A stretch of DNA of 64,000 nt from Panorpa germanica (taxonomy: Eukaryota > Arthropoda > Insecta > Mecoptera > Panorpidae). The stretch lies in the NCBI GenBank assembly GCA_963678705.1, contig OY783208.1, positions 16,551,782 to 16,615,781 of the forward strand, written 5' to 3'. The notes beneath the pieces are model-generated. The model saw only the letters and a program-made list of their open reading frames with translations, had not been told where the DNA came from and made no database searches. A program made the translations under genes and the position numbers. Positions within the stretch are counted from its first letter, which is position 1. Every line of letters starts with the position of its first letter. Shown one piece after another: positions 1-18,901 of this stretch.

Positions 1-3
1 AAA

Positions 4-63
4 CTCTAGAGAATTCCAGAACCTTCCAGAAAGTTCTAGAGACACCCAGAAAATTCTAGAAAA
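4..63 (+). promoter_or_regulatory. Heat-shock-element-like array in the retrotransposon leader (copy 1)
   Basis: Twelve consecutive 5-bp blocks follow the HSE rule of alternating nGAAn and nTTCn units. In order, the first three bases of the blocks are CTC, GAG, TTC, GAA, TTC, GAA, TTC, GAG, ACC, GAA, TTC, GAA. Five in a row (14-38) are perfect. This is the known recognition pattern of trimeric heat-shock factor. It lies between the LTR and gag. Function is inferred. The palindromic units could instead act in the RNA, for example in dimerisation or packaging. Confidence 0.55.
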
Positions 64-101
64 TAATTTTATAACCATTTACAACACAATACGCAACAAA
101 A

Positions 102-1322
102 ATGGAGGAAATATTAAAAGAGCTTAGAGAGATAAGAGAAGTACAAAAAGTTGATTTTAGAGAGATGAAAGAAGAGATGTTCGAAATAATACAAAAACAA
201 ACAGAAAAGTCTAAAGAAGAGATGCTCGAGAAAATTCAAGAGCAGGCCGAAAACACTAAAGAAGACATATGCGAGAAGTTTAATGCGTTCCAAGTACAGT
301 TGCAAGCTGTAGAAGAAGCTTGCAAAGGATCCAGAAAGGAATTAGAAACGCGGATAAATGAAATAGAAGATAGTGTGACACAAAGTCTCCAATCGGTTAC
401 AACACGTCAAGAATTGGCAGAGACAAAAATAATAGAAATAGAAGAACGCGTGGAACTCATCAAAAAAAATGGAAAGCAACTAGAAGGTGCACAGCTTGCA
501 CAACCGGCAGAGAGGATGCAAGTTCTAGAAAACTCTCAAGGTTGCGTCAACTCTACGTTTGCGAAAAGCAGCACTATTAAGCCATCTCCCTACGATGGAA
601 CAATCTCTTGGCAGGAATATGAGGTGCAATTCACAGCCATAGCGGAGTTCAATGGCTGGAGTGACAGGGATTGTGCAGGCCAGTTAGCGGCCATGTTACG
701 GGGCTCGGCTCTAATCGCTTTCCAAAATATGAACCCGGACGAGCGGCGAAGCTATACGGCTCTTAAAGCAATGCTAAGCCAGCGGTATGGGGAAGAAAAT
801 CTCGCACCTCTGTACTGGACGCAGCTGGTGAACCGGAGACAAGCTGCAGGAGAAAGGCTGGCAGACCTGGCGACAGATATCGAGCGATTAGTAAACCGTG
901 CTGCAGGCAGAGCCCCCAGAGAAACATTAGGAAATTGGGAGGTACAATACTTCGCTAACGCTGTACGGGAGCGCAGAATAAAGGAGGCCATTTTATTGGC
1001 TAAGCCGAAGAACATAAACGAGGCCCTGGCCGCTGCGCTTCAAATGGAAACCGTCAGCCATATTCCCGATGTGAGCCGTATAAGGAGCGCCACTATATCT
1101 CCCTCTCATACCACCCCTGCTATGGACGAGGTGTTTCGGCGATTGGCGGACCTCGAGGATCGAAATAGGAACCGTTATAATCCAGGAATTTCAAGAGGTC
1201 GGCAATGGACTTCCTACAGGGGAAGAAACCCAACGGTGAATAATACAAGCTCGGAAAGAAGACCCTCCACATCGGCTGCCAATGCGGATCGGCAGTCGGG
1301 AAACGAGTCGCAGGCAGTTTAA
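102..1322 (+). CDS. gag: Gag protein of gypsy element, copy 1
   Basis: A 406-aa structural protein expected to form the cytoplasmic virus-like particle. The ATG at 102 is in good context (acaaaaATGG). Residues 1-150 are highly charged and heptad-rich, predicting a long coiled coil. Residues about 160-320 contain a retrotransposon-gag-type helical region (motif around SWQEYEVQF, then LKAMLSQRYG). The C-terminus is basic and rich in Arg, Asn and Ser (SRGRQWTSYRGRN). No CCHC zinc knuckle is present, so RNA binding probably rests on the basic tail. Gag ends at TAA 1320-1322. Its last codons overlap the -1 frame of pol, and the stop lies inside the predicted frameshift pseudoknot. Confidence 0.9.
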   Translation: MEEILKELREIREVQKVDFREMKEEMFEIIQKQTEKSKEEMLEKIQEQAENTKEDICEKFNAFQVQLQAVEEACKGSRKELETRINEIEDSVTQSLQSVTTRQELAETKIIEIEERVELIKKNGKQLEGAQLAQPAERMQVLENSQGCVNSTFAKSSTIKPSPYDGTISWQEYEVQFTAIAEFNGWSDRDCAGQLAAMLRGSALIAFQNMNPDERRSYTALKAMLSQRYGEENLAPLYWTQLVNRRQAAGERLADLATDIERLVNRAAGRAPRETLGNWEVQYFANAVRERRIKEAILLAKPKNINEALAAALQMETVSHIPDVSRIRSATISPSHTTPAMDEVFRRLADLEDRNRNRYNPGISRGRQWTSYRGRNPTVNNTSSERRPSTSAANADRQSGNESQAV

Positions 1323-1361
1323 CGGGGACAACTCTGCCTGCTGTTCCGATTAAGAGTCCCC
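1298..1361 (+). promoter_or_regulatory. -1 ribosomal frameshift signal between gag and pol (copy 1)
   Basis: The heptamer GGGAAAC (1298-1304) sits in the gag frame as tcG GGA AAC, exactly the X XXY YYZ layout. After a 5-nt spacer (1305-1309), GCAGGCAG (1310-1317) pairs perfectly with CTGCCTGC (1334-1341). The loop contains GGGGAC (1324-1329), which pairs with GTCCCC (1356-1361), giving an H-type pseudoknot. Loop lengths are 6, 4 and 14 nt. The pol frame is open across the whole region, and the gag stop lies in loop 1. GGGAAAC is a known retroviral slip site. The pairing is read directly; frameshifting itself is inferred. Confidence 0.85.
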
Positions 1362-4300
1362 ACATTACAGCAGTCGGAACAATAAGAGGAGTAAATAGGG
1401 GACCAATTGTGATAGGATATATGGAAAACCGACCCTGCAAATTTTTGATTGATACTGGTGCTACGCAATCACTAGTAGGATTGGAATTCATTAGACGACA
1501 AAAATTTACGAAGCAGATCATTGCACCAGCAGCACCCATTGTATTGCGAGCAATTACTGGAGATACGGCACCCGTTTCCGGAAAAATTAAATTAAAGATC
1601 AGGTTAGGCCACATGATCCGTGACTTTATATTCCTTGTAGCACCAATAGAGGAAGAATGTGTTCTGGGTTACGATTGGATGTCCTTAATAAACTGTACAA
1701 TTTGTCCAAGAGCTAAAATTATACAGATAGGAAGAGACCGGCTTGAGCTGCTAAAAGATGACACTGAAGGAACTCTAAATATCAGAACGAGTATTACAAA
1801 AAACATACAACCCTCAGATGATAAAAAAGTGACCCTTCCAGACCACCTACAGGACGTCTATGAAAAGTCGAATAAAAAGTTAACTCTTGAAGAATCTCAT
1901 GACCTGAAGATGGTACTACAAGACAACCAGGACATTTTTTCATCGGGAATAGAAGACGTGGGACACACGACATTAGTGCAACACCCAATAAAGATAGGAG
2001 ACGCTAGACCAATTAAACAACCTGCACGAAGACTGCCATGGGGACAAGAAGAGGAAGTTGACGCCATGGTGGATCAAATGCTGCGAGACGGAATAATAGA
2101 ACCCTCAACAAGTCCGTGGGCATCACCGATAGTACTAGTAAAGAAAAAAGACGGAACGAAGCGATTCTGCGTAGACTACAGGAGATTAAATGATGTCACG
2201 CTAAAGGATGCATACCCGTTGCCTCGTATCGATAGCCTTTTTAGCGTATTAAATGGGTCTAATTACTTCTCCACGCTTGATCTCCGGAGCGGATATTGGC
2301 AAGTGGAAGTAAAACAAGAAGATAGGGAGAAAACAGCGTTCACGACCGGGAAAGGTCTATGGCAGTTTCGAGTAATGCCTTTTGGTCTATGTAATGCCCC
2401 CGCAACATTTGAACGATTAATGGATAGCGTCTTAAAAGACTTACCTCCGGGAACATGCCTCGTGTATCTGGACGACATAGTGGTGCTTGGCAAAGATGCT
2501 AGAAGCCAAATAGATAATTTGAAAATTGTATTTCAACGATTACGAACAGCAAACCTTAAATTAAACCCAAAGAAATGCAACCTTTGTGCCGAGCAAATAA
2601 GATATCTGGGACATGTCGTCACTAGAAATGGAGTATCTACGGACCCGGAAAAAGTGAAAGCTATACAAACCTGGCCGACACCCACCAACCTGTCGGAAGT
2701 GCGGAGTTTCCTTGGGTTATGTGCTTATTACAGAAAATTTGTTTCAAACTTTGCGAAGATTGCGAAACCGCTATATGAACTTACAGAGAAACCAACTACG
2801 AAGAGGCGACCCATTGTGTGGACACCATCATGTGAAGACTCGTTCAACCAACTAAAGGGAAAGCTTACAAATGCACCGATTCTTGCTTTTCCCCAACGTG
2901 TAGGTGAATTTATATTGGATACGGACGCATCGCATACCGGAATGGGAGCAGTACTTTCACAAGTACAACAAGGCGAAGAACGCGTACTAGAATACTTCAG
3001 TAGGGTATTCTCGAAGGCCGAACAGAATTACTGTGTTACGAGAAAGGAACTTCTGGCAGTCGTTAAAGCTCTAAAACAGTGTAGACACTATTTGTGGGGC
3101 CAGCCATTTCAAATTCGGACCGACCACGCGTCGTTAACTTGGTTAACAAATTTTAAGGAGCCTGAGGGACAACTGGCACGTTGGCTACAACAAATAAGCG
3201 AATACCAGTATAAAATCGAGTATCGGCCAGGACGTCAACACGCGAATGCAGATGCATTGTCTAGAAGACCGTGTGCAACCAATGGATGTGACCACTGTGA
3301 ACGAAAGGAGGCTAAACAGGAGCCCGAATGCGTACCCGATGAGGCAATACTTATACGACATACTCAAGTCTATTTACAAAACGGTCGATTACCTCTTAAC
3401 TATGATGATGCCGAAAAATGGGATCCCGACACATTAGTAAAAGCAGAAAACAAAATGAGCATGGAATACATCAGAGATGACCTATTCCTAGCACCCTCCG
3501 AATACGCGTTAGCCCATTGTGTCGCCGAAGACCTGCACATGAGTAAGGGCATTGCAGTAACATTTAAGGAGAAATTCGGAGATCTGAGAAAGCTTCGAGA
3601 ACAACAGAGAAAGGTAGGAGAAGTTGCAGTTCTAGAAAAGGATGGAAGATTTATTTATTACCTGATTACAAAACGGAGGAGTTCCGGAAAACCAACGTAT
3701 CATGATTTATGGAAATCATTGGTATCACTACGAGAACACATCCTGCAGCAACAAGTAAAGAAGTTAGCCATTCCGCAAATAGGGTGCGGACACGATCATT
3801 TGACGTGGGCACATGTAGAACGTCTGCTGAAATACGTGTTCTACGATTTGGAGCTCAACATTCAGGTTTATATACCAGAACCAGTAGTAACCGTTCCCAT
3901 AAGATACTTGACGCGGGCGAAGGCTAAAACCGAAGAAACGCAAGTAACAGAGAATAATGATTCGCCTCCACCTGCAGATAGCTCGATTCAAACGACTGAT
4001 CAAGCAGAAGATGAACTGGGTGACATCGTAGGTGAAGCACAGAAAGAAGATGAAGATCTGGCACTCATTGCGGCATGGAAAAAGACAGGAATTAGGCCTC
4101 CATGGCCAGAGGTATCAGCCTATAGTCCTCGCGTAAAAGAATATTGGTCTATGTGGAACTGTTTAGAACTTCACGATGGAAGGCTATATCGATTGTGGCA
4201 TTTTGTAGACAACAGGCCACCCATTCGACAACTGATAGTACCTAATAAACTAGTCCCGGATATATTGAAACAGGTACACGATAGTTTCTCAGGTGGACAT

Positions 4301-5347
4301 TTCGGGGTGTATAAAACACTAGAGAAGATACGGCAAAGGTGGTACTGGCCCCGTTGCGGAGCCTCAGTAAATCGTTGGTGTCGAAATTGTGACACTTGTA
4401 CGGCCAGTAAAGGACCCCGACAGAGAAATCAAGGACCTATGCATACCTACACAGTGGGAGCACCGTTCGAAAGAGTTGGAATGGACATTTTAGGACCACT
4501 GCCACGGAGCCGAAACGGCAATAAGTATGTGTTGATCGTGGTGGATTACTTTACCAAATGGCCTGAAATACTTCCTATTCCGAATCAAGAAGCGATTACA
4601 GTTGCAAAAGTCTTTGTGCAAGAAGTAGTATCGCGTTATGGAGTTCCCCAAGAGCTACATTCGGATCAAGGAAGAAATTTTGAAGCCGCCGTATTCCAAC
4701 AGATTTCGAAACTTCTAGGCATGCATAAAACCCGAACTACACCATTACATCCGCAGTCGAACGGCATGGTTGAAAGACTAAATCGGACGATAGAGGAATA
4801 CCTGACGAAATTTGTCCATACTAACCAAGACAATTGGGACGAGTTGATACCTCTGTTTCTACTGGCATATCGGTCAGCGGTGCACGAAGCAACACGGCAG
4901 ACTCCAGCCGCTATGCTAATGGGACGTGAACTCAGGTTACCCTGTGACCTGATGTACGGACCTCCTCCCGAGAGAAAGATTGGCAACGAAGAATACTGCG
5001 AAACCATAGCGCAAGAATTAGAAGAAATCCACAAATTCGCGAGAGAACGCCTTCAGTTAGCGACGGATCGCTCGAAAACGCGTTATGATTGTGGAAAACA
5101 AAGTCAGCGCTTTTCCAGAGGTGATGCGGTATGGCTCTACTACCCTAAGAAGAAGATAGGACGAAGCCCTAAGCTACAAGCCAAATGGGAAGGACCGTAT
5201 TTAATATCGGCGGCCATTTCGGACGTGATCTACAAAGTGCAGAGATCAGCCCGAGGAAAATGCATGATTGTTCACCGAGACCGACTCGCAAAGTACGAGG
5301 GTGAAAATGCTCCAGGTTGGGAATTAACTGAGTCAGCCGCCCGATAA
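1304..5347 (+). CDS. pol: Pol polyprotein with embedded macrodomain, copy 1
   Basis: Made as Gag-Pol by -1 frameshifting; there is no ATG at the start of the frame. Residues are numbered from the codon at 1409. Protease: DTG at 15-17. Reverse transcriptase: first Asp 291 (STLDLRSG), YLDD at 353-356. RNase H: Asp 506 in LDTDAS, ending near NADALSR (about 618). A TARG1-like macrodomain occupies about 690-823. Integrase: HHCC zinc finger from His957 to the CRNC-DTC cysteines, core D1026, D1086, E1122 with exactly 35 residues between the last two, then a C-terminal GPY-type module. The protein replicates and inserts the element. The roughly 335-residue gap between RNase H and the integrase zinc finger is far longer than in ordinary gypsy elements and is explained by the captured domain. 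Confidence 0.95.
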   Translation, partial: RVAGSLTGTTLPAVPIKSPHITAVGTIRGVNRGPIVIGYMENRPCKFLIDTGATQSLVGLEFIRRQKFTKQIIAPAAPIVLRAITGDTAPVSGKIKLKIRLGHMIRDFIFLVAPIEEECVLGYDWMSLINCTICPRAKIIQIGRDRLELLKDDTEGTLNIRTSITKNIQPSDDKKVTLPDHLQDVYEKSNKKLTLEESHDLKMVLQDNQDIFSSGIEDVGHTTLVQHPIKIGDARPIKQPARRLPWGQEEEVDAMVDQMLRDGIIEPSTSPWASPIVLVKKKDGTKRFCVDYRRLNDVTLKDAYPLPRIDSLFSVLNGSNYFSTLDLRSGYWQVEVKQEDREKTAFTTGKGLWQFRVMPFGLCNAPATFERLMDSVLKDLPPGTCLVYLDDIVVLGKDARSQIDNLKIVFQRLRTANLKLNPKKCNLCAEQIRYLGHVVTRNGVSTDPEKVKAIQTWPTPTNLSEVRSFLGLCAYYRKFVSNFAKIAKPLYELTEKPTTKRRPIVWTPSCEDSFNQLKGKLTNAPILAFPQRVGEFILDTDASHTGMGAVLSQVQQGEERVLEYFSRVFSKAEQNYCVTRKELLAVVKALKQCRHYLWGQPFQIRTDHASLTWLTNFKEPEGQLARWLQQISEYQYKIEYRPGRQHANADALSRRPCATNGCDHCERKEAKQEPECVPDEAILIRHTQVYLQNGRLPLNYDDAEKWDPDTLVKAENKMSMEYIRDDLFLAPSEYALAHCVAEDLHMSKGIAVTFKEKFGDLRKLREQQRKVGEVAVLEKDGRFIYYLITKRRSSGKPTYHDLWKSLVSLREHILQQQVKKLAIPQIGCGHDHLTWAHVERLLKYVFYDLELNIQVYIPEPVVTVPIRYLTRAKAKTEETQVTENNDSPPPADSSIQTTDQAEDELGDIVGEAQKEDEDLALIAAWKKTGIRPPWPEVSAYSPRVKEYWSMWNCLELHDGRLYRLWHFVDNRPPIRQLIVPNKLVPDILKQVHDSFSGGHFGVYKTLEKIRQRWYWPRCGASVNRWCRNCDTCTASKGPRQRNQGPMHTYTVGAPFERVGMDILGPLPRSRNGNKYVLIVVDYFTKWPEILPIPNQEAITVAKVFVQEVVSRYGVPQELHSDQGRNFEAAVFQQISKLLGMHKTRTTPLHPQSNGMVERLNRTIEEYLTKFVHTNQDNWDELIPLFLLAYRSAVHEATRQTPAAMLMGRELRLPCDLMYGPPPERKIGNEEYCETIAQELEEIHKFARERLQLATDRSKTRYDCGKQSQRFSRGDAVWLYYPKKKIGRSPKLQAKWEGPYLISAAISDVIYKVQRSARGKCMIVHRDRLAKYEGENAPGWELTESAAR
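3470..3880 (+). other. TARG1/OARD1-like macrodomain inside pol (copy 1)
   Basis: This in-frame segment of pol (residues about 690-823) matches the TARG1 (OARD1) ADP-ribosylhydrolase fold from end to end. Recognisable blocks are LAHCVAEDLHMSKGIA, VAVLEKDGRFIYYLITK, KPTYHDLWKSL and PQIGCGHDHLTW. TARG1 removes ADP-ribose from acidic residues using Lys84 and Asp125. The equivalents here are Lys755 (codon 3671, in LITK) and Asp796 (codon 3794, in GCGHD), also 41 residues apart. Activity is therefore plausible. It lies between RNase H and integrase and has no start or stop of its own. The family assignment is from recalled family motifs, not a search. Confidence 0.88.
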
Positions 5348-5376
5348 AAATTATAAGCTCTCGGGACGAGCGCTTT

Positions 5377-5390
5377 AAAGAGGGGGAAAG
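5377..5390 (+). other. Polypurine tract
   Basis: The run AAAGAGGGGGAAAG directly abuts the first base of the LTR (5391). This is the expected primer site for plus-strand DNA synthesis. The same tract precedes the second and third LTRs (11738-11751 and 18099-18112). Confidence 0.85.
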
Positions 5391-6179
5391 TGTTACGGAT
5401 TTGCGGGCGTCTGAAGAGATAAAAATTATAGTTATAAAATAATAGCTGGAATTAGCAGAAAAGGTTGCGCATCCCTGTAGAAGTATCTAGACATTTCGAT
5501 AACGAAATTGTTTACTCGTGGCTTAAGTGGAAATGCGTGTTCTTGGACATAACAAAAACAACTGCATTCCGCGTATATTTGTTATTGTTTACATATGAAC
5601 GCTCGAGAGGCAGATGTTGCGCGTATAAAAATAGTCGGCAGGCCACCTATACGCGTGTGTGTTCCGGGAAATGGAAATAAACAACCGCATACCAGGCACT
5701 TTTGTTATTGTTTACATGTGAGCACTCGGAAGCCAGATGCTACACATATGGTGTGGAACGTTATCGGAATATTCTGGGAGGTAAAAGGTGTCGTGATCAG
5801 GGGAAGTCTGCTGCGTAGACCGCTAATATAAAAGGAGCAAATCATCGCGTCGGAAGACAGTCCGCGAGTAAGAGTCAGTCAGCGATAGTCAGAGAGTTAA
5901 TTGTAAACAGTTGTTGTAAAGTAGTTGTAATTGTTTTGTGTTAATAAATAAAGTTTGTAAAAGAGTAAGTCCTTCTTATTATTTTAATTGTGGCTATTTC
6001 TTAATTTAATAAGTTACAGCGCGACTAATAGTAAAGAATTGCATCCGCACGGCAATCAACTAAAAGAACCCACAGTCGCAGGCGTAATACGGCGTATATG
6101 TAGAAGAAGTTAAAGAGAATTGCTGCTACGAGTACACAGGCTAGTCGTCTCCGTCGTCACGCCGGGTAAAATTGTAACA
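5391..6179 (+). repeat. Gypsy LTR 1
   Basis: A 789-bp LTR with TGTTAC...GTAACA termini. It holds a TATA box (TATAAAA, 5827-5833), a second TATAAAA at 5624-5630 and AATAAA signals at 5943-5952, so it carries the promoter and poly(A) site. An imperfect direct repeat of about 123-bp period (GTTATTGTTTACAT at 5581-5594 and 5704-5717, with similar flanks) looks like a duplicated enhancer-type block. It differs from LTR 2 at a single site I can see (A at 6049, T at 12410). Confidence 0.93.
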
Positions 6180-6181
6180 TT

Positions 6182-6199
6182 TGGTGTCAGAAGTGGGAT
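6182..6199 (+). other. Primer binding site, complementary to tRNA-Leu
   Basis: TGGTGTCAGAAGTGGGAT starts 2 nt after the LTR. It is complementary to the 3' end of an animal tRNA-Leu (the ...CCCACTTCTGACA-CCA type, CAA anticodon family). The same site follows LTR 2 at 12543-12560. LTR 3 ends in flanking DNA with no PBS. Confidence 0.8.
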
Positions 6200-6257
6200 A
6201 GCTACAGTTACGACCGCTGCCGAGAGAATTCCAAGAAGAAAACAGGAGAGTCTGAAA

Positions 6258-6424
6258 CTACGTTTCCAAAGAGACTTCCAGAAACTTCTAGTCGGGATTT
6301 GCAGCCAGAAGGATTTTCAGAAGAGGAAGGTTCGAGAAAAACGGTAATAATAATTTCAAAGAAACTCTAGAGAATTCCAGAACCTTCCAGAAAGTTCTAG
6401 AGACACCCAGAAAATTCTAGAAAA
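6258..6424 (+). promoter_or_regulatory. Heat-shock-element-like clusters in leader (copy 2, full leader)
   Basis: The full leader is visible here and holds three clusters of phased TTC/GAA units. These are 6271-6290 (gagac-TTCca-GAAac-TTCta), 6326-6340 (GAAgg-TTCga-GAAaa) and the long 12-block array 6365-6424 described at 4-63. Clusters this dense are unlikely by chance even in purine-rich DNA. Binding by heat-shock factor is an inference. Confidence 0.5.
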
Positions 6425-6462
6425 TAATTTTATAACCATTTACAACACAATACGCAACAAAA

Positions 6463-7683
6463 ATGGAGGAAATATTAAAAGAGCTTAGAGAGATAAGAGA
6501 AGTACAAAAAGTTGATTTTAGAGAGATGAAAGAAGAGATGTTCGAAATAATACAAAAACAAACAGAAAAGTCTAAAGAAGAGATGCTCGAGAAAATTCAA
6601 GAGCAGGCCGAAAACACTAAAGAAGACATATGCGAGAAGTTTAATGCGTTCCAAGTACAGTTGCAAGCTGTAGAAGAAGCTTGCAAAGGATCCAGAAAGG
6701 AATTAGAAACGCGGATAAATGAAATAGAAGATAGTGTGACACAAAGTCTCCAATCGGTTACAACACGTCAAGAATTGGCAGAGACAAAAATAATAGAAAT
6801 AGAAGAACGCGTGGAACTCATCAAAAAAAATGGAAAGCAACTAGAAGGTGCACAGCTTGCACAACCGGCAGAGAGGATGCAAGTTCTAGAAAACTCTCAA
6901 GGTTGCGTCAACTCTACGTTTGCGAAAAGCAGCACTATTAAGCCATCTCCCTACGATGGAACAATCTCTTGGCAGGAATATGAGGTGCAATTCACAGCCA
7001 TAGCGGAGTTCAATGGCTGGAGTGACAGGGATTGTGCAGGCCAGTTAGCGGCCATGTTACGGGGCTCGGCTCTAATCGCTTTCCAAAATATGAACCCGGA
7101 CGAGCGGCGAAGCTATACGGCTCTTAAAGCAATGCTAAGCCAGCGGTATGGGGAAGAAAATCTCGCACCTCTGTACTGGACGCAGCTGGTGAACCGGAGA
7201 CAAGCTGCAGGAGAAAGGCTGGCAGACCTGGCGACAGATATCGAGCGATTAGTAAACCGTGCTGCAGGCAGAGCCCCCAGAGAAACATTAGGAAATTGGG
7301 AGGTACAATACTTCGCTAACGCTGTACGGGAGCGCAGAATAAAGGAGGCCATTTTATTGGCTAAGCCGAAGAACATAAACGAGGCCCTGGCCGCTGCGCT
7401 TCAAATGGAAACCGTCAGCCATATTCCCGATGTGAGCCGTATAAGGAGCGCCACTATATCTCCCTCTCATACCACCCCTGCTATGGACGAGGTGTTTCGG
7501 CGATTGGCGGACCTCGAGGATCGAAATAGGAACCGTTATAATCCAGGAATTTCAAGAGGTCGGCAATGGACTTCCTACAGGGGAAGAAACCCAACGGTGA
7601 ATAATACAAGCTCGGAAAGAAGACCCTCCACATCGGCTGCCAATGCGGATCGGCAGTCGGGAAACGAGTCGCAGGCAGTTTAA
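6463..7683 (+). CDS. gag: Gag protein of gypsy element, copy 2
   Basis: 406 aa, identical in protein sequence to the first copy (102-1322). It has the same N-terminal coiled coil, retrotransposon-gag core, Arg-rich tail and lack of a zinc knuckle. Its complete leader (6180-6462) with PBS and HSE-like arrays is present upstream. The intact frame and full LTRs on both sides make this copy potentially autonomous. Confidence 0.9.
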   Translation: MEEILKELREIREVQKVDFREMKEEMFEIIQKQTEKSKEEMLEKIQEQAENTKEDICEKFNAFQVQLQAVEEACKGSRKELETRINEIEDSVTQSLQSVTTRQELAETKIIEIEERVELIKKNGKQLEGAQLAQPAERMQVLENSQGCVNSTFAKSSTIKPSPYDGTISWQEYEVQFTAIAEFNGWSDRDCAGQLAAMLRGSALIAFQNMNPDERRSYTALKAMLSQRYGEENLAPLYWTQLVNRRQAAGERLADLATDIERLVNRAAGRAPRETLGNWEVQYFANAVRERRIKEAILLAKPKNINEALAAALQMETVSHIPDVSRIRSATISPSHTTPAMDEVFRRLADLEDRNRNRYNPGISRGRQWTSYRGRNPTVNNTSSERRPSTSAANADRQSGNESQAV

Positions 7684-7722
7684 CGGGGACAACTCTGCCT
7701 GCTGTTCCGATTAAGAGTCCCC
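7659..7722 (+). promoter_or_regulatory. -1 frameshift signal (copy 2)
   Basis: The heptamer (7659-7665), the 8-bp stem and the 6-bp pseudoknot stem are identical to copy 1, at +6361. Confidence 0.85.
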
Positions 7723-10700
7723 ACATTACAGCAGTCGGAACAATAAGAGGAGTAAATAGGGGACCAATTGTGATAGGATATATGGAAAACCGACCCTGCA
7801 AATTTTTGATTGATACTGGTGCTACGCAATCACTAGTAGGATTGGAATTCATTAGACGACAAAAATTTACGAAGCAGATCATTGCACCAGCAGCACCCAT
7901 TGTATTGCGAGCAATTACTGGAGATACGGCACCCGTTTCCGGAAAAATTAAATTAAAGATCAGGTTAGGCCACATGATCCGTGACTTTATATTCCTTGTA
8001 GCACCAATAGAGGAAGAATGTGTTCTGGGTTACGATTGGATGTCCTTAATAAACTGTACAATTTGTCCAAGAGCTAAAATTATACAGATAGGAAGAGACC
8101 GGCTTGAGCTGCTAAAAGATGACACTGAAGGAACTCTAAATATCAGAACGAGTATTACAAAAAACATACAACCCTCAGATGATAAAAAAGTGACCCTTCC
8201 AGACCACCTACAGGACGTCTATGAAAAGTCGAATAAAAAGTTAACTCTTGAAGAATCTCATGACCTGAAGATGGTACTACAAGACAACCAGGACATTTTT
8301 TCATCGGGAATAGAAGACGTGGGACACACGACATTAGTGCAACACCCAATAAAGATAGGAGACGCTAGACCAATTAAACAACCTGCACGAAGACTGCCAT
8401 GGGGACAAGAAGAGGAAGTTGACGCCATGGTGGATCAAATGCTGCGAGACGGAATAATAGAACCCTCAACAAGTCCGTGGGCATCACCGATAGTACTAGT
8501 AAAGAAAAAAGACGGAACGAAGCGATTCTGCGTAGACTACAGGAGATTAAATGATGTCACGCTAAAGGATGCATACCCGTTGCCTCGTATCGATAGCCTT
8601 TTTAGCGTATTAAATGGGTCTAATTACTTCTCCACGCTTGATCTCCGGAGCGGATATTGGCAAGTGGAAGTAAAACAAGAAGATAGGGAGAAAACAGCGT
8701 TCACGACCGGGAAAGGTCTATGGCAGTTTCGAGTAATGCCTTTTGGTCTATGTAATGCCCCCGCAACATTTGAACGATTAATGGATAGCGTCTTAAAAGA
8801 CTTACCTCCGGGAACATGCCTCGTGTATCTGGACGACATAGTGGTGCTTGGCAAAGATGCTAGAAGCCAAATAGATAATTTGAAAATTGTATTTCAACGA
8901 TTACGAACAGCAAACCTTAAATTAAACCCAAAGAAATGCAACCTTTGTGCCGAGCAAATAAGATATCTGGGACATGTCGTCACTAGAAATGGAGTATCTA
9001 CGGACCCGGAAAAAGTGAAAGCTATACAAACCTGGCCGACACCCACCAACCTGTCGGAAGTGCGGAGTTTCCTTGGGTTATGTGCTTATTACAGAAAATT
9101 TGTTTCAAACTTTGCGAAGATTGCGAAACCGCTATATGAACTTACAGAGAAACCAACTACGAAGAGGCGACCCATTGTGTGGACACCATCATGTGAAGAC
9201 TCGTTCAACCAACTAAAGGGAAAGCTTACAAATGCACCGATTCTTGCTTTTCCCCAACGTGTAGGTGAATTTATATTGGATACGGACGCATCGCATACCG
9301 GAATGGGAGCAGTACTTTCACAAGTACAACAAGGCGAAGAACGCGTAATAGAATACTTCAGTAGGGTATTCTCGAAGGCCGAACAGAATTACTGTGTTAC
9401 GAGAAAGGAACTTCTGGCAGTCGTTAAAGCTCTAAAACAGTGTAGACACTATTTGTGGGGCCAGCCATTTCAAATTCGGACCGACCACGCGTCGTTAACT
9501 TGGTTAACAAATTTTAAGGAGCCTGAGGGACAACTGGCACGTTGGCTACAACAAATAAGCGAATACCAGTATAAAATCGAGTATCGGCCAGGACGTCAAC
9601 ACGCGAATGCAGATGCATTGTCTAGAAGACCGTGTGCAACCAATGGATGTGACCACTGTGAACGAAAGGAGGCTAAACAGGAGCCCGAATGCGTACCCGA
9701 TGAGGCAATACTTATACGACATACTCAAGTCTATTTACAAAACGGTCGATTACCTCTTAACTATGATGATGCCGAAAAATGGGATCCCGACACATTAGTA
9801 AAAGCAGAAAACAAAATGAGCATGGAATACATCAGAGATGACCTATTCCTAGCACCCTCCGAATACGCGTTAGCCCATTGTGTCGCCGAAGACCTGCACA
9901 TGAGTAAGGGCATTGCAGTAACATTTAAGGAGAAATTCGGAGATCTGAGAAAGCTTCGAGAACAACAGAGAAAGGTAGGAGAAGTTGCAGTTCTAGAAAA
10001 GGATGGAAGATTTATTTATTACCTGATTACAAAACGGAGGAGTTCCGGAAAACCAACGTATCATGATTTATGGAAATCATTGGTATCACTACGAGAACAC
10101 ATCCTGCAGCAACAAGTAAAGAAGTTAGCCATTCCGCAAATAGGGTGCGGACACGATCATTTGACGTGGGCACATGTAGAACGTCTGCTGAAATACGTGT
10201 TCTACGATTTGGAGCTCAACATTCAGGTTTATATACCAGAACCAGTAGTAACCGTTCCCATAAGATACTTGACGCGGGCGAAGGCTAAAACCGAAGAAAC
10301 GCAAGTAACAGAGAATAATGATTCGCCTCCACCTGCAGATAGCTCGATTCAAACGATTGATCAAGCAGAAGATGAACTGGGTGACATCGTAGGTGAAGCA
10401 CAGAAAGAAGATGAAGATCTGGCACTCATTGCGGCATGGAAAAAGACAGGAATTAGGCCTCCATGGCCAGAGGTATCAGCCTATAGTCCTCGCGTAAAAG
10501 AATATTGGTCTATGTGGAACTGTTTAGAACTTCACGATGGAAGGCTATATCGATTGTGGCATTTTGTAGACAACAGGCCACCCATTCGACAACTGATAGT
10601 ACCTAATAAACTAGTCCCGGATATATTGAAACAGGTACACGATAGTTTCTCAGGTGGACATTTCGGGGTGTATAAAACACTAGAGAAGATACGGCAAAGG

Positions 10701-11708
10701 TGGTACTGGCCCCGTTGCGGAGCCTCAGTAAATCGTTGGTGTCGAAATTGTGACACTTGTACGGCCAGTAAAGGACCCCGACAGAGAAATCAAGGACCTA
10801 TGCATACCTACACAGTGGGAGCACCGTTCGAAAGAGTTGGAATGGACATTTTAGGACCACTGCCACGGAGCCGAAACGGCAATAAGTATGTGTTGATCGT
10901 GGTGGATTACTTTACCAAATGGCCTGAAATACTTCCTATTCCGAATCAAGAAGCGATTACAGTTGCAAAAGTCTTTGTGCAAGAAGTAGTATCGCGTTAT
11001 GGAGTTCCCCAAGAGCTACATTCGGATCAAGGAAGAAATTTTGAAGCCGCCGTATTCCAACAGATTTCGAAACTTCTAGGCATGCATAAAACCCGAACTA
11101 CACCATTACATCCGCAGTCGAACGGCATGGTTGAAAGACTAAATCGGACGATAGAGGAATACCTGACGAAATTTGTCCATACTAACCAAGACAATTGGGA
11201 CGAGTTGATACCTCTGTTTCTACTGGCATATCGGTCAGCGGTGCACGAAGCAACACGGCAGACTCCAGCCGCTATGCTAATGGGACGTGAACTCAGGTTA
11301 CCCTGTGACCTGATGTACGGACCTCCTCCCGAGAGAAAGATTGGCAACGAAGAATACTGCGAAACCATAGCGCAAGAATTAGAAGAAATCCACAAATTCG
11401 CGAGAGAACGCCTTCAGTTAGCGACGGATCGCTCGAAAACGCGTTATGATTGTGGAAAACAAAGTCAGCGCTTTTCCAGAGGTGATGCGGTATGGCTCTA
11501 CTACCCTAAGAAGAAGATAGGACGAAGCCCTAAGCTACAAGCCAAATGGGAAGGACCGTATTTAATATCGGCGGCCATTTCGGACGTGATCTACAAAGTG
11601 CAGAGATCAGCCCGAGGAAAATGCATGATTGTTCACCGAGACCGACTCGCAAAGTACGAGGGTGAAAATGCTCCAGGTTGGGAATTAACTGAGTCAGCCG
11701 CCCGATAA
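7665..11708 (+). CDS. pol: Pol polyprotein with embedded macrodomain, copy 2
   Basis: Same length and domain order as the first copy. It differs from copy 1 by Leu to Ile in the RNase H region (GEERVIEYF, near 9347) and Thr to Ile in the linker after the macrodomain (QTIDQ, near 10356); neither touches a catalytic residue. The macrodomain occupies about 9831-10241, with its Lys codon at 10032 and Asp codon at 10155. This is the only copy with a complete LTR on each side in the window (5391-6179 and 11752-12540). Confidence 0.95.
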   Translation, partial: RVAGSLTGTTLPAVPIKSPHITAVGTIRGVNRGPIVIGYMENRPCKFLIDTGATQSLVGLEFIRRQKFTKQIIAPAAPIVLRAITGDTAPVSGKIKLKIRLGHMIRDFIFLVAPIEEECVLGYDWMSLINCTICPRAKIIQIGRDRLELLKDDTEGTLNIRTSITKNIQPSDDKKVTLPDHLQDVYEKSNKKLTLEESHDLKMVLQDNQDIFSSGIEDVGHTTLVQHPIKIGDARPIKQPARRLPWGQEEEVDAMVDQMLRDGIIEPSTSPWASPIVLVKKKDGTKRFCVDYRRLNDVTLKDAYPLPRIDSLFSVLNGSNYFSTLDLRSGYWQVEVKQEDREKTAFTTGKGLWQFRVMPFGLCNAPATFERLMDSVLKDLPPGTCLVYLDDIVVLGKDARSQIDNLKIVFQRLRTANLKLNPKKCNLCAEQIRYLGHVVTRNGVSTDPEKVKAIQTWPTPTNLSEVRSFLGLCAYYRKFVSNFAKIAKPLYELTEKPTTKRRPIVWTPSCEDSFNQLKGKLTNAPILAFPQRVGEFILDTDASHTGMGAVLSQVQQGEERVIEYFSRVFSKAEQNYCVTRKELLAVVKALKQCRHYLWGQPFQIRTDHASLTWLTNFKEPEGQLARWLQQISEYQYKIEYRPGRQHANADALSRRPCATNGCDHCERKEAKQEPECVPDEAILIRHTQVYLQNGRLPLNYDDAEKWDPDTLVKAENKMSMEYIRDDLFLAPSEYALAHCVAEDLHMSKGIAVTFKEKFGDLRKLREQQRKVGEVAVLEKDGRFIYYLITKRRSSGKPTYHDLWKSLVSLREHILQQQVKKLAIPQIGCGHDHLTWAHVERLLKYVFYDLELNIQVYIPEPVVTVPIRYLTRAKAKTEETQVTENNDSPPPADSSIQTIDQAEDELGDIVGEAQKEDEDLALIAAWKKTGIRPPWPEVSAYSPRVKEYWSMWNCLELHDGRLYRLWHFVDNRPPIRQLIVPNKLVPDILKQVHDSFSGGHFGVYKTLEKIRQRWYWPRCGASVNRWCRNCDTCTASKGPRQRNQGPMHTYTVGAPFERVGMDILGPLPRSRNGNKYVLIVVDYFTKWPEILPIPNQEAITVAKVFVQEVVSRYGVPQELHSDQGRNFEAAVFQQISKLLGMHKTRTTPLHPQSNGMVERLNRTIEEYLTKFVHTNQDNWDELIPLFLLAYRSAVHEATRQTPAAMLMGRELRLPCDLMYGPPPERKIGNEEYCETIAQELEEIHKFARERLQLATDRSKTRYDCGKQSQRFSRGDAVWLYYPKKKIGRSPKLQAKWEGPYLISAAISDVIYKVQRSARGKCMIVHRDRLAKYEGENAPGWELTESAAR

Positions 11709-11751
11709 AAATTATAAGCTCTCGGGACGAGCGCTTTAAAGAGGGGGAAAG

Positions 11752-12540: not shown

Positions 12541-12618
12541 TTTGGTGTCAGAAGTGGGATAGCTACAGTTACGACCGCTGCCGAGAGAATTCCAAGAAGA
12601 AAACAGGAGAGTCTGAAA

Positions 12619-12785
12619 CTACGTTTCCAAAGAGACTTCCAGAAACTTCTAGTCGGGATTTGCAGCCAGAAGGATTTTCAGAAGAGGAAGGTTCGAGAAA
12701 AACGGTAATAATAATTTCAAAGAAACTCTAGAGAATTCCAGAACCTTCCAGAAAGTTCTAGAGACACCCAGAAAATTCTAGAAAA
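12619..12785 (+). promoter_or_regulatory. Heat-shock-element-like clusters in leader (copy 3)
   Basis: Same three phased TTC/GAA clusters as in the copy 2 leader, unchanged. The long array is 12726-12785. Confidence 0.5.
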
Positions 12786-12823
12786 TAATTTTATAACCAT
12801 TTACAACACAATACGCAACAAAA

Positions 12824-14044
12824 ATGGAGGAAATATTAAAAGAGCTTAGAGAGATAAGAGAAGTACAAAAAGTTGATTTTAGAGAGATGAAAGAAGAGAT
12901 GTTCGAAATAATACAAAAACAAACAGAAAAGTCTAAAGAAGAGATGCTCGAGAAAATTCAAGAGCAGGCCGAAAACACTAAAGAAGACATATGCGAGAAG
13001 TTTAATGCGTTCCAAGTACAGTTGCAAGCTGTAGAAGAAGCTTGCAAAGGATCCAGAAAGGAATTAGAAACGCGGATAAATGAAATAGAAGATAGTGTGA
13101 CACAAAGTCTCCAATCGGTTACAACACGTCAAGAATTGGCAGAGACAAAAATAATAGAAATAGAAGAACGCGTGGAACTCATCAAAAAAAATGGAAAGCA
13201 ACTAGAAGGTGCACAGCTTGCACAACTGGCAGAGAGGATGCAAGTTCTAGAAAACTCTCAAGGTTGCGTCAACTCTACGTTTGCGAAAAGCAGCACTATT
13301 AAGCCATCTCCCTACGATGGAACAATCTCTTGGCAGGAATATGAGGTGCAATTCACAGCCATAGCGGAGTTCAATGGCTGGAGTGACAGGGATTGTGCAG
13401 GCCAGTTAGCGGCCATGTTACGGGGCTCGGCTCTAATCGCTTTCCAAAATATGAACCCGGACGAGCGGCGAAGCTATACGGCTCTTAAAGCAATGCTAAG
13501 CCAGCGGTATGGGGAAGAAAATCTCGCACCTCTGTACTGGACGCAGCTGGTGAACCGGAGACAAGCTGCAGGAGAAAGGCTGGCAGACCTGGCGACAGAT
13601 ATCGAGCGATTAGTAAACCGTGCTGCAGGCAGAGCCCCCAGAGAAACATTAGGAAATTGGGAGGTACAATACTTCGCTAACGCTGTACAAGAGCGCAGAA
13701 TAAAGGAGGCCATTTTATTGGCTAAGCCGAAGAACATAAACGAGGCCCTGGCCGCTGCGCTTCAAATGGAAACCGTCAGCCATATTCCCGATGTGAGCCG
13801 TATAAGGAGCGCCACTATATCTCCCTCTCATACCACCCCTGCTATGGACGAGGTGTTTCGGCGATTGGCGGACCTCGAGGATCGAAATAGGAACCGTTAT
13901 AATCCAGGAATTTCAAGAGGTCGGCAATGGACTTCCTACAGGGGAAGAAACCCAACGGTGAATAATACAAGCTCGGAAAGAAGACCCTCCACATCGGCTG
14001 CCAATGCGGATCGGCAGTCGGGAAACGAGTCGCAGGCAGTTTAA
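12824..14044 (+). CDS. gag: Gag protein of gypsy element, copy 3
   Basis: 406 aa, open throughout. Two amino-acid differences from the other copies: Pro to Leu in AQLAQLAERM, and Arg to Gln in NAVQERR (two adjacent base changes at 13689-13690, cgg to caa). The second lies in the helical gag core. These private changes show the third copy is not a simple assembly duplicate of the first two. Confidence 0.9.
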   Translation: MEEILKELREIREVQKVDFREMKEEMFEIIQKQTEKSKEEMLEKIQEQAENTKEDICEKFNAFQVQLQAVEEACKGSRKELETRINEIEDSVTQSLQSVTTRQELAETKIIEIEERVELIKKNGKQLEGAQLAQLAERMQVLENSQGCVNSTFAKSSTIKPSPYDGTISWQEYEVQFTAIAEFNGWSDRDCAGQLAAMLRGSALIAFQNMNPDERRSYTALKAMLSQRYGEENLAPLYWTQLVNRRQAAGERLADLATDIERLVNRAAGRAPRETLGNWEVQYFANAVQERRIKEAILLAKPKNINEALAAALQMETVSHIPDVSRIRSATISPSHTTPAMDEVFRRLADLEDRNRNRYNPGISRGRQWTSYRGRNPTVNNTSSERRPSTSAANADRQSGNESQAV

Positions 14045-14083
14045 CGGGGACAACTCTGCCTGCTGTTCCGATTAAGAGTCCCC
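14020..14083 (+). promoter_or_regulatory. -1 frameshift signal (copy 3)
   Basis: Identical to copies 1 and 2: heptamer at 14020-14026, pseudoknot arms at +12722. Confidence 0.85.
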
Positions 14084-17000
14084 ACATTACAGCAGTCGGA
14101 ACAATAAGAGGAGTAAATAGGGGACCAATTGTGATAGGATATATGGAAAACCGACCCTGCAAATTTTTGATTGATACTGGTGCTACGCAATCACTAGTAG
14201 GATTGGAATTCATTAGACGACAAAAATTTACGAAGCAGATCATTGCACCAGCAGCACCCATTGTATTGCGAGCAATTACTGGAGATACGGCACCCGTTTC
14301 CGGAAAAATTAAATTAAAGATCAGGTTAGGCCACATGATCCGTGACTTTATATTCCTTGTAGCACCAATAGAGGAAGAATGTGTTCTGGGTTACGATTGG
14401 ATGTCCTTAATAAACTGTACAATTTGTCCAAGAGCTAAAATTATACAGATAGGAAGAGACCGGCTTGAGCTGCTAAAAGATGACACTGAAGGAACTCTAA
14501 ATATCAGAACGAGTATTACAAAAAACATACAACCCTCAGATGATAAGGAAGTGACCCTTCCAGACCACCTACAGGACGTCTATGAAAAGTCGAATAAAAA
14601 GTTAACTCTTGAAGAATCTCATGACCTGAAGATGGTACTACAAGACAACCAGGACATTTTTTCATCGGGAATAGAAGACGTGGGACACACGACATTAGTG
14701 CAACACCCAATAAAGATAGGAGACGCTAGACCAATTAAACAACCTGCACGAAGACTGCCATGGGGACAAGAAGAGGAAGTTGACGCCATGGTGGATCAAA
14801 TGCTGCGAGACGGAATAATAGAACCCTCAACAAGTCCGTGGGCATCACCGATAGTACTAGTAAAGAAAAAAGACGGAACGAAGCGATTCTGCGTAGACTA
14901 CAGGAGATTAAATGATGTCACGCTAAAGGATGCATACCCGTTGCCTCGTATCGATAGCCTTTTTAGCGTATTAAATGGGTCTAATTACTTCTCCACGCTT
15001 GATCTCCGGAGCGGATATTGGCAAGTGGAAGTAAAACAAGAAGATAGGGAGAAAACAGCGTTCACGACCGGGAAAGGTCTATGGCAGTTTCGAGTAATGC
15101 CTTTTGGTCTATGTAATGCCCCCGCAACATTTGAACGATTAATGGATAGCGTCTTAAAAGACTTACCTCCGGGAACATGCCTCGTGTATCTGGACGACAT
15201 AGTGGTGCTTGGCAAAGATGCTAGAAGCCAAATAGATAATTTGAAAATTGTATTTCAACGATTACGAACAGCAAACCTTAAATTAAACCCAAAGAAATGC
15301 AACCTTTGTGCCGAGCAAATAAGATATCTGGGACATGTCGTCACTAGAAATGGAGTATCTACGGACCCGGAAAAAGTGAAAGCTATACAAACCTGGCCGA
15401 CACCCACCAACCTGTCGGAAGTGCGGAGTTTCCTTGGGTTATGTGCTTATTACAGAAAATTTGTTTCAAACTTTGCGAAGATTGCGAAACCGCTATATGA
15501 ACTTACAGAGAAACCAACTACGAAGAGGCGACCCATTGTGTGGACACCATCATGTGAAGACTCGTTCAACCAACTAAAGGGAAAGCTTACAAATGCACCG
15601 ATTCTTGCTTTTCCCCAACGTGTAGGTGAATTTATATTGGATACGGACGCATCGCATACCGGAATGGGAGCAGTACTTTCACAAGTACAACAAGGCGAAG
15701 AACGCGTACTAGAATACTTCAGTAGGGTATTCTCGAAGGCCGAACAGAATTACTGTGTTACGAGAAAGGAACTTCTGGCAGTCGTTAAAGCTCTAAAACA
15801 GTGTAGACACTATTTGTGGGGCCAGCCATTTCAAATTCGGACCGACCACGCGTCGTTAACTTGGTTAACAAATTTTAAGGAGCCTGAGGGACAACTGGCA
15901 CGTTGGCTACAACAAATAAGCGAATACCAGTATAAAATCGAGTATCGGCCAGGACGTCAACACGCGAATGCAGATGCATTGTCTAGAAGACCGTGTGCAA
16001 CCAATGGATGTGACCACTGTGAACGAAAGGAGGCTAAACAGGAGCCCGAATGCGTACCCGATGAGGCAATACTTATACGACATACTCAAGTCTATTTACA
16101 AAACGGTCGATTACCTCTTAACTATGATGATGCCGAAAAATGGGATCCCGACACATTAGTAAAAGCAGAAAACAAAATGAGCATGGAATACATCAGAGAT
16201 GACCTATTCCTAGCACCCTCCGAATACGCGTTAGCCCATTGTGTCGCCGAAGACCTGCACATGAGTAAGGGCATTGCAGTAACATTTAAGGAGAAATTCG
16301 GAGATCTGAGAAAGCTTCGAGAACAACAGAGAAAGGTAGGAGAAGTTGCAGTTCTAGAAAAGGATGGAAGATTTATTTATTACCTGATTACAAAACGGAG
16401 GAGTTCCGGAAAACCAACGTATCATGATTTATGGAAATCATTGGTATCACTACGAGAACACATCCTGCAGCAACAAGTAAAGAAGTTAGCCATTCCGCAA
16501 ATAGGGTGCGGACACGATCATTTGACGTGGGCACATGTAGAACGTCTGCTGAAATACGTGTTCTACGATTTGGAGCTCAACATTCAGGTTTATATACCAG
16601 AACCAGTAGTAACCGTTCCCATAAGATACTTGACGCGGGCGAAGGCTAAAACCGAAGAAACGCAAGTAACAGAGAATAATGATTCGCCTCCACCTGCAGA
16701 TAGCTCGATTCAAACGACTGATCAAGCAGAAGATGAACTGGGTGACATCGTAGGTGAAGCACAGAAAGAAGATGAAGATCTGGCACTCATTGCGGCATGG
16801 AAAAAGACAGGAATTAGGCCTCCATGGCCAGAGGTATCAGCCTATAGTCCTCGCGTAAAAGAATATTGGTCTATGTGGAACTGTTTAGAACTTCACGATG
16901 GAAGGCTATATCGATTGTGGCATTTTGTAGACAACAGGCCACCCATTCGACAACTGATAGTACCTAATAAACTAGTCCCGGATATATTGAAACAGGTACA

Positions 17001-18069
17001 CGATAGTTTCTCAGGTGGACATTTCGGGGTGTATAAAACACTAGAGAAGATACGGCAAAGGTGGTACTGGCCCCGTTGCGGAGCCTCAGTAAATCGTTGG
17101 TGTCGAAATTGTGACACTTGTACGGCCAGTAAAGGACCCCGACAGAGAAATCAAGGACCTATGCATACCTACACAGTGGGAGCACCGTTCGAAAGAGTTG
17201 GAATGGACATTTTAGGACCACTGCCACGGAGCCGAAACGGCAATAAGTATGTGTTGATCGTGGTGGATTACTTTACCAAATGGCCTGAAATACTTCCTAT
17301 TCCGAATCAAGAAGCGATTACAGTTGCAAAAGTCTTTGTGCAAGAAGTAGTATCGCGTTATGGAGTTCCCCAAGAGCTACATTCGGATCAAGGAAGAAAT
17401 TTTGAAGCCGCCGTATTCCAACAGATTTCGAAACTTCTAGGCATGCATAAAACCCGAACTACACCATTACATCCGCAGTCGAACGGCATGGTTGAAAGAC
17501 TAAATCGGACGATAGAGGAATACCTGACGAAATTTGTCCATACTAACCAAGACAATTGGGACGAGTTGATACCTCTGTTTCTACTAGCATATCGGTCAGC
17601 GGTGCACGAAGCAACACGGCAGACTCCAGCCGCTATGCTAATGGGACGTGAACTCAGGTTACCCTGTGACCTGATGTACGGACCTCCTCCCGAGAGAAAG
17701 ATTGGCAACGAAGAATACTGCGAAACCATAGCGCAAGAATTAGAAGAAATCCACAAATTCGCGAGAGAACGCCTTCAGTTAGTGACGGATCGCTCGAAAA
17801 CGCGTTATGATTGTGGAAAACAAAGTCAGCGCTTTTCCAGAGGTGATGCGGTATGGCTCTACTACCCTAAGAAGAAGATAGGACGAAGCCCTAAGCTACA
17901 AGCCAAATGGGAAGGACCGTATTTAATATCGGCGGCCATTTCGGACGTGATCTACAAAGTGCAGAGATCAGCCCGAGGAAAATGCATGATTGTTCACCGA
18001 GACCGACTCGCAAAGTACGAGGGTGAAAATGCTCCAGGTTGGGAATTAACTGAGTCAGCCGCCCGATAA
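14026..18069 (+). CDS. pol: Pol polyprotein with embedded macrodomain, copy 3
   Basis: Open throughout. Differs from copy 1 by Lys to Glu before the RT (SDDKEVT) and Ala to Val in the integrase tail (LQLVTDR). All protease, RT, RNase H, macrodomain and integrase active-site residues are kept. The macrodomain is at about 16192-16602, with Lys codon 16393 and Asp codon 16516. Three intact copies of the extra domain argue that it is a functional part of the polyprotein. Confidence 0.95.
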   Translation, partial: RVAGSLTGTTLPAVPIKSPHITAVGTIRGVNRGPIVIGYMENRPCKFLIDTGATQSLVGLEFIRRQKFTKQIIAPAAPIVLRAITGDTAPVSGKIKLKIRLGHMIRDFIFLVAPIEEECVLGYDWMSLINCTICPRAKIIQIGRDRLELLKDDTEGTLNIRTSITKNIQPSDDKEVTLPDHLQDVYEKSNKKLTLEESHDLKMVLQDNQDIFSSGIEDVGHTTLVQHPIKIGDARPIKQPARRLPWGQEEEVDAMVDQMLRDGIIEPSTSPWASPIVLVKKKDGTKRFCVDYRRLNDVTLKDAYPLPRIDSLFSVLNGSNYFSTLDLRSGYWQVEVKQEDREKTAFTTGKGLWQFRVMPFGLCNAPATFERLMDSVLKDLPPGTCLVYLDDIVVLGKDARSQIDNLKIVFQRLRTANLKLNPKKCNLCAEQIRYLGHVVTRNGVSTDPEKVKAIQTWPTPTNLSEVRSFLGLCAYYRKFVSNFAKIAKPLYELTEKPTTKRRPIVWTPSCEDSFNQLKGKLTNAPILAFPQRVGEFILDTDASHTGMGAVLSQVQQGEERVLEYFSRVFSKAEQNYCVTRKELLAVVKALKQCRHYLWGQPFQIRTDHASLTWLTNFKEPEGQLARWLQQISEYQYKIEYRPGRQHANADALSRRPCATNGCDHCERKEAKQEPECVPDEAILIRHTQVYLQNGRLPLNYDDAEKWDPDTLVKAENKMSMEYIRDDLFLAPSEYALAHCVAEDLHMSKGIAVTFKEKFGDLRKLREQQRKVGEVAVLEKDGRFIYYLITKRRSSGKPTYHDLWKSLVSLREHILQQQVKKLAIPQIGCGHDHLTWAHVERLLKYVFYDLELNIQVYIPEPVVTVPIRYLTRAKAKTEETQVTENNDSPPPADSSIQTTDQAEDELGDIVGEAQKEDEDLALIAAWKKTGIRPPWPEVSAYSPRVKEYWSMWNCLELHDGRLYRLWHFVDNRPPIRQLIVPNKLVPDILKQVHDSFSGGHFGVYKTLEKIRQRWYWPRCGASVNRWCRNCDTCTASKGPRQRNQGPMHTYTVGAPFERVGMDILGPLPRSRNGNKYVLIVVDYFTKWPEILPIPNQEAITVAKVFVQEVVSRYGVPQELHSDQGRNFEAAVFQQISKLLGMHKTRTTPLHPQSNGMVERLNRTIEEYLTKFVHTNQDNWDELIPLFLLAYRSAVHEATRQTPAAMLMGRELRLPCDLMYGPPPERKIGNEEYCETIAQELEEIHKFARERLQLVTDRSKTRYDCGKQSQRFSRGDAVWLYYPKKKIGRSPKLQAKWEGPYLISAAISDVIYKVQRSARGKCMIVHRDRLAKYEGENAPGWELTESAAR

Positions 18070-18112
18070 AAATTATAAGCTCTCGGGACGAGCGCTTTAA
18101 AGAGGGGGAAAG

Positions 18113-18901
18113 TGTTACGGATTTGCGGGCGTCTGAAGAGATAAAAATTATAGTTATAAAATAATAGCTGGAATTAGCAGAAAAGGTTGCGCATCCCTGT
18201 AGAAGTATCTAGACATTTCGATAACGAAATTGTTTACTCGTGGCTTAAGTGGAAATGCGTGTTCTTGGACATAACAAAAACAACTGCATTCCGCGTATAT
18301 TTGTTATTGTTTACATATGAACGCTCGAGAGGCAGATGTTGCGCGTATAGAAATAGTCGGCAGGCCACCTATACGCGTGTGTGTTCCGGGAAATGGAAAT
18401 AAACAACCGCATACCAGGCACTTTTGTTATTGTTTACATGTGAGCACTCGGAAGCCAGATGCTACACATATGGTGTGGAACGTTATCGGAATATTCTGGG
18501 AGGTAAAAGGTGTCGTGATCAGGGGAAGTCTGCTGCGTAGACCGCTAATATAAAAGGAGCAAATCATCGCGTCGGAAGACAGTCCGCGAGTAAGAGTCAG
18601 TCAGCGATAGTCAGAGAGTTAATTGTAAACAGTTGTTGTAAAGTAGTTGTAATTGTTTTGTGTTAATAAATAAAGTTTGTAAAAGAGTAAGTCCTTCTTA
18701 TTATTTTAATTGTGGCTATTTCTTAATTTAATAAGTTACAGCGCGACTAATAGTAAAGAATTGCATCCGCTCGGCAATCAACTAAAAGAACCCACAGTCG
18801 CAGGCGTAATACGGCGTATATGTAGAAGAAGTTAAAGAGGATTGCTGCTACGAGTACACAGGCTAGTCGTCTCCGTCGTCACGCCGGGTAAAATTGTAAC
18901 A
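18113..18901 (+). repeat. Gypsy LTR 3, terminal LTR of the array
   Basis: Closes the array with ...GTAACA at 18901. The flanking DNA begins ATATGATGG. The matching 5' target duplication lies outside the window, so it cannot be checked here. Confidence 0.93.

Follow-up and report, generated by a model that had tools for sequence, protein, structure and literature searches.

The Ty3/gypsy retrotransposon at the start of the 64,000-nucleotide window analysed here (Panorpa germanica, contig OY783208.1, positions 16,551,782 to 16,615,781 of the forward strand) carries a TARG1-type macrodomain within its Pol polyprotein. In cells, enzyme domains of this type remove ADP-ribose from proteins and from DNA. 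A first-pass annotation, made from the letters of the window alone, had noticed this domain in the array at hand; the arrangement is broader than assumed there, as it recurs in several gypsy families of the same genome and in public Pols, at three different Pol locations. The domain has probably been captured and kept as a working ADP-ribosylhydrolase that shields the element from host ADP-ribosylation, a reading to which a probability of roughly 0.6 is assigned on the basis of sequence comparison and structural modelling.

The macrodomain and the element that carries it

The window begins inside a tandem array (1-18901) of three copies of one element, which share long terminal repeats (LTRs) and recur with a period of 6361. 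Each copy contains a gag-like open reading frame (ORF), overlapped in a different frame by a pol ORF of 1367 codons. The Pfam domain order in copy 1, protease, reverse transcriptase (RT), RNase H, and integrase, is that of Ty3/gypsy elements, and the TG...CA LTRs, seen as the array repeat with ends placed by eye, are those of an LTR retrotransposon (Table 1). No env ORF follows pol in the window: pol ends at 5347, the LTR starts at about 5391, and no plus-strand ORF of at least 150 residues precedes the next gag, so the element is not of the env-carrying, errantivirus-like kind. A search of viral contigs returned no relative. Copies 1 and 2 differ at 3 sites and copies 2 and 3 at 15 listed sites, 4 of which lie beyond the last LTR; so few differences are what LTR-LTR recombination or repeat expansion would be expected to leave. 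Being nearly identical members of one tandem array, the three copies are not independent evidence.

Table 1. Features of the tandem Ty3/gypsy array (window coordinates)
Feature	Position	Strand	Basis
gag-like ORF, copy 1	75..1322	+	open frame; weak Retrotrans_gag match, E 0.005, below cut-off
Pol ORF, copy 1	1244..5347	+	open frame
Aspartic protease, copy 1	1418..1681	+	PF13650 E 1.3e-5
Reverse transcriptase, copy 1	2138..2617	+	PF00078, two adjacent pieces
RNase H, copy 1	2819..3205	+	PF17919 E 2.1e-35, PF17917 E 1.1e-36
TARG1-type macrodomain, copy 1	3461..3871	+	PDB phmmer E 7e-43; Foldseek TM 0.95 to TARG1
Lys equivalent to TARG1 Lys84	3671..3673	+	alignment; kept in 44/44 fetched family-A copies
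Asp equivalent to TARG1 Asp125	3794..3796	+	alignment; kept in 44/44 fetched family-A copies
Integrase zinc-binding and core, copy 1	4238..4753	+	PF17921 E 2.4e-21, PF00665 E 5.9e-12
Integrase C-terminal domain, copy 1	5192..5293	+	PF22938 E 2.5e-8
Further LTR copies	5391-6179, 11752-12540		placed by the 6361 period
Pol ORF, copy 2	7605..11708	+	open frame
TARG1-type macrodomain, copy 2	9822..10232	+	411 searched bases identical; Lys/Asp codons the same
Pol ORF, copy 3	13966..18069	+	open frame
TARG1-type macrodomain, copy 3	16183..16593	+	411 searched bases identical; Lys/Asp codons the same
LTR closing the array, TG...CA	18113..18901	+	ends by eye; array periodicity stops there

The segment between RNase H and integrase matches the PDB sequences of human TARG1 (C6orf130; 2l8r, 4j5q, 2lgr, 2eee, and 4j5r/4j5s) with expectation values (E) of 7.1e-43 to 7.9e-43, and 137 residues align without a gap to 2l8r and to 4j5q. 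Identity to human TARG1/OARD1 is 50%, and the next sequence relatives in the PDB are DarG-type macrodomains (E 7e-7 to 2e-4). The predicted model has a mean local confidence (pLDDT) of 92.9 and superposes on human TARG1, its closest fold, at a template-modelling (TM) score of 0.95. The identity, the predicted fold, the location, and the intactness of the domain in all three copies thus stand as first annotated. In a profile search, the Pfam Macro family (PF01661) scores 21.4 bits (E 2.5e-4), slightly under its 22-bit gathering cut-off; two insect TARG1-type proteins are likewise borderline at 22.3 and 21.8 bits.

Asp125 of human TARG1 has a catalytic role, and its counterpart in Pol lies 41 residues after the counterpart of Lys84 in all three copies. 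This spacing had been noted before, together with the residue numbers 755 and 796, which were counted from another start; numbering from where the open frame begins gives 810 and 851. The role of Lys84 is described in PMC8501950. An artefact, or a host gene misread as an element, is rejected in view of the open Pol frame, of 40 scored places on 16 contigs that match the domain at 96-100%, and of an intron-bearing host gene elsewhere in the genome.

Spread, constraint, and origin of Pol macrodomains

The window element belongs to what is here called family A. A DNA search of the source genome (464 Mb), in which 40 of 91 candidates were scored, the three window copies included, returned matches to all 411 domain bases at 96-100% in every scored place. 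A protein search scored 150 of 597 candidates; in 43 of the 44 best-scoring rows the matched domain has no stop, and one row contains a TAG. Constraint was estimated from the ratio of nonsynonymous to synonymous differences (pN/pS) between copies. The first sample drew on the 30 best loci, of which 24 are open over a 3.4-kb piece; six frame-broken loci were dropped and two tandem copies left out (n=22). In this set pN/pS is 0.069 for RT/RNase H, 0.156 for the linker before the domain, 0.112 (0.030-0.264) for the domain, 0.672 for the linker after it, and 0.196 for integrase, with the domain estimate too low because these loci had been selected for their protein similarity to this very domain, a choice that biases pN downward there. 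When the next 14 rows are added, frame-broken ones included (n=42), the domain reaches 0.192 (0.095-0.379) vs 0.214 (0.140-0.327) for the integrase part and 0.709 (0.388-1.302) for the following linker. The family-A domain is therefore constrained about as strongly as integrase, next to a relaxed following linker and a constrained preceding one; neutral evolution, which had been named as an outcome that would speak against a functional domain, is not what the copies display.

Four further families in the genome contain the domain. In family B it lies behind protease and ahead of RT (Pfam assigns protease and Macro; RT was recognised by eye). Among 129 matches to a 31-residue piece of the family-B domain, 57 places reach 84% or more. 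Motif searches recover the lysine in 17 of 18 loci and the aspartate in 17 of 18, the remaining one giving no reading in each case. One locus considered as a host TARG1 exon (L041, C198) was rejected, being a degraded family-B element. In families C, D, and E the domain lies between RNase H and integrase (order by eye) and is 31% identical to that of family A. In family D, pol is followed by a Baculovirus F-like frame (L039:1-522, minus strand; E 3.8e-18), as in an env-carrying, errantivirus-like element.

Public sequences extend this distribution. A first search with Pol-length proteins gave 17 matches, 14 of which bear insect names (the others are P0005, P0009, and P0016). A profile scan covered the 120 listed Pols nearest to family A by RT-RNase H, the best 120 of 3371 above threshold (7957 candidates scored). 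Four of them (P0048, P0083, P0110, and P0120, here family F) have a macrodomain after integrase with E 1.4e-37 or better, and the other 116 of the 120 yielded no domain score below E 0.4. In P0048 and P0110 a CCCH zinc-finger-like stretch stands right behind the post-integrase macrodomain at the C-terminus. The search with the family-D domain found a single match, the public Pol P0018, whose residues 358-492, between RNase H and integrase, form a decayed macrodomain with the lysine retained and asparagine in place of the aspartate. This case suggests that remnants of macrodomains may make up some of the long Pol spacers so far unexplained. Across nine chosen element rows (one each from A-E, four from F), 13 of 137 columns are invariant, both catalytic residues among them, and the chance of two named columns both falling within a random 13 of 137 is about 0.008 (by hand); the nine-row count leaves out P0018 and a frame-broken family-D copy (D_L046), each of which has lost one catalytic residue.

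Of 127 RT-RNase H rows, 4 were dropped for insufficient coverage; on a tree of the remaining 123 (built by a quick method, with approximate likelihood-ratio support, SH-aLRT, only), presence of the domain changes at least three times and its location at least four times, and these changes may be gains or losses. Family A falls in a seven-row set (95) with six integrase-covering Pols that have no domain; B, C, D, E, and P0018 group together (95), as do the four post-integrase Pols (89). The gap between RNase H and integrase is 321 residues in A vs 93-97 in its six relatives; 76 Pols that have integrase but no domain show a median gap of 111 (45-292). Of the 112 Pols labelled domain-free, 36 do not cover integrase, which makes some of these labels unsure. 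The simplest reading is that A, the post-integrase group, and the B-E group gained the domain separately, and the differing site within B-E suggests a further gain or a move.

A single capture for all families is not favoured, given the three or more presence changes and four location changes that the RT tree requires. The tree of host and element domains that had been called for neither rejects such a capture nor settles the matter: A and B are placed with cellular domains (99/100), with long branches flagged, and the approximately unbiased test retains both a clade of all element domains (p-AU 0.376) and one of A plus B (p-AU 0.506). That tree was built without P0003, P0006, and D_L046, at a stage when the four post-integrase Pols had yet to be found.

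A separate TARG1-type gene belongs to the host (L044:458-3349); it has several exons, introns inside the domain (boundaries by eye), and a low-complexity N-terminus. The make-up of this gene and a mitochondrial contig whose COX1 frame is open under code 5 both suggest an insect. The domain of the host gene is 48-49% identical to those of A and B (A 48%) and 29-32% identical to those of C-E. The element domains are intron-free, which fits capture through an mRNA. A later open stretch of L044 looks macro-like by eye, and several insect TARG1-type proteins show a further weak macro-like stretch downstream of the first, e.g., Schistocerca P0001 at 566-655. Four other loci (L001, L002, L006, and L007) hold more Pfam Macro matches; some of these sit in short open frames and may represent exons of other host macrodomain genes.

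Proposed function and rival explanations

The preferred reading is that an intron-free copy of an animal TARG1-type macrodomain was captured by a Ty3/gypsy element and came to lie in Pol, with RNase H before it and integrase after it. Synthesised within the polyprotein, the domain would be present beside RT and integrase in the virus-like particle, where it may remove mono-ADP-ribose from Gag and Pol or from the ends or bases of single- and double-stranded cDNA, such that host ADP-ribosyltransferases would be unable to block reverse transcription or integration. Retroelement particles that hold Pol make RNA, single-stranded DNA, and linear double-stranded DNA, and these are the natural candidate substrates. 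Cleavage rather than binding is suggested by the lysine and aspartate: both are invariant in the nine rows, and a pure binder would not need the two together.

Several observations weigh against a working enzyme. In family A, the window copy included, the aspartate is flanked on both sides by histidine in place of Leu124 and Arg126 of human TARG1. The linker before the domain is itself constrained (0.196, 0.108-0.356, n=42), so the contrast in pN/pS exists only with the following linker; in the 14 added lower-scoring copies the domain stands at 0.341 (0.183-0.703) vs 0.693 for that linker, with overlapping intervals (linker before 0.250, integrase 0.288), and the compared pairs are not independent in any of these estimates. 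Constraint on family B, taken from 19 loci (one without the motif, 14 open across the compared stretch), is weaker than in family A and not clearly separate from the flanks (0.328, 0.144-0.785, vs 0.488 and 0.609; overlapping). Asparagine replaces the lysine in D_L046, one of two aligned family-D domains, Gly123 is lost in family E, and P0018 has lost the aspartate and most of the pocket.

The last two of these losses and the indistinct constraint on family B would equally be expected of a structural spacer or of a functionless passenger that was captured by accident and tolerated, since P0018 shows a decayed version in the same place and hence decay tolerated in at least one lineage. A passenger is nevertheless quite unlikely: the family-A domain resembles integrase in pN/pS next to a relaxed following linker, stops are almost absent from its best-scoring copies, and presence has changed at least three times on the RT tree. 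Another unlikely alternative is that the domain is an ADP-ribose reader, which would bind chromatin or DNA breaks that carry ADP-ribose and guide the integration complex to them, much as chromodomains do in other gypsy elements. In A, C, D, and E the domain precedes integrase and in the four F Pols it follows integrase, both being positions that a targeting module might occupy. Some macrodomains do act as readers, according to PMC11088682. A pure reader, however, need not retain the Lys/Asp pair, which is kept in the nine A-F rows and in 44 of 44 family-A copies, and the family-B domain sits between protease and RT. It is very improbable that the domain acts against ADP-ribosylating toxins of bacteria or viruses, or in some other way serves the host and not the element. 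TARG1 does counter DarT-type DNA modification, as PMC8501950 reports, but the domain is carried in the Pol of many mobile copies, and the host already owns a TARG1-type gene.

Relation to known systems

The window domain resembles human TARG1, the terminal ADP-ribose glycohydrolase, in sequence, fold, and the Lys84/Asp125 pair; the human protein is a separate cellular protein, whereas the domain described here is embedded in the Pol of a retrotransposon. Insect TARG1-type genes (e.g., Schistocerca and Leptinotarsa) are 41-53% identical to it and differ in encoding proteins of 518-1193 residues with the domain internal and, in L044, interrupted by introns. Like folds in BFVD come from insect viruses, among them Kadipiro virus VP8 (51% identity, TM 0.95), iridoviruses, an entomopoxvirus, and insect virga/negev-like viruses, but these are RNA or large DNA viruses with other protein contexts. 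The DarG antitoxin macrodomains (24-27% identity) are bacterial and paired with a toxin. Alphavirus nsP3 macrodomains likewise reside inside a viral polyprotein, share only 10-17% identity, and use different catalytic residues.

No description of a macrodomain in a Ty3/gypsy Pol was found in the literature searched, which did not extend to some key sources. The novelty first claimed for the arrangement is weakened by the nearest precedent found, the fish epsilon-like endogenous retroviruses, which have additional ORFs encoding macro domain proteins according to a review (PMC4977317, citing Basta et al. 2009). The likeness is a macrodomain in a reverse-transcribing element; in the fish retroviruses, by that review's wording, it is encoded in additional ORFs, while the window domain lies inside the Pol of a Ty3/gypsy element.

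Macrodomains aid some RNA viruses against host ADP-ribosylation, as stated in PMC10499221. That several retrotransposon lineages keep this enzyme type in Pol suggests that reverse-transcribing elements, too, are subject to ADP-ribosylation. This is directly testable with a published rescue assay (PMC8501950). The elements also supply Lys/Asp-intact and decayed versions as natural material for comparison. A bolder and rather unlikely extension is that insect reverse-transcribing elements have their nascent cDNA or their replication proteins ADP-ribosylated as a host defence, and that several gypsy lineages independently built a TARG1-type eraser into Pol in answer. If true, retroelements would have their own version of the DarT/DarG conflict, and a cDNA-modifying ADP-ribosyltransferase not yet described would be suggested.

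Beyond the array, the window contains other repeats. At 20872-24220, a 723-codon frame in which gag-like and integrase-end-like parts are fused lies between two identical 300-nucleotide stretches, themselves 3049 apart; the arrangement looks like an internally deleted gypsy element. A 300-nucleotide direct repeat, its copies 3238 apart, accompanies duplicated non-LTR endonuclease-like frames at 27082-30841, and piggyBac-like transposase frames, recognised by eye, occupy 61726-63617.
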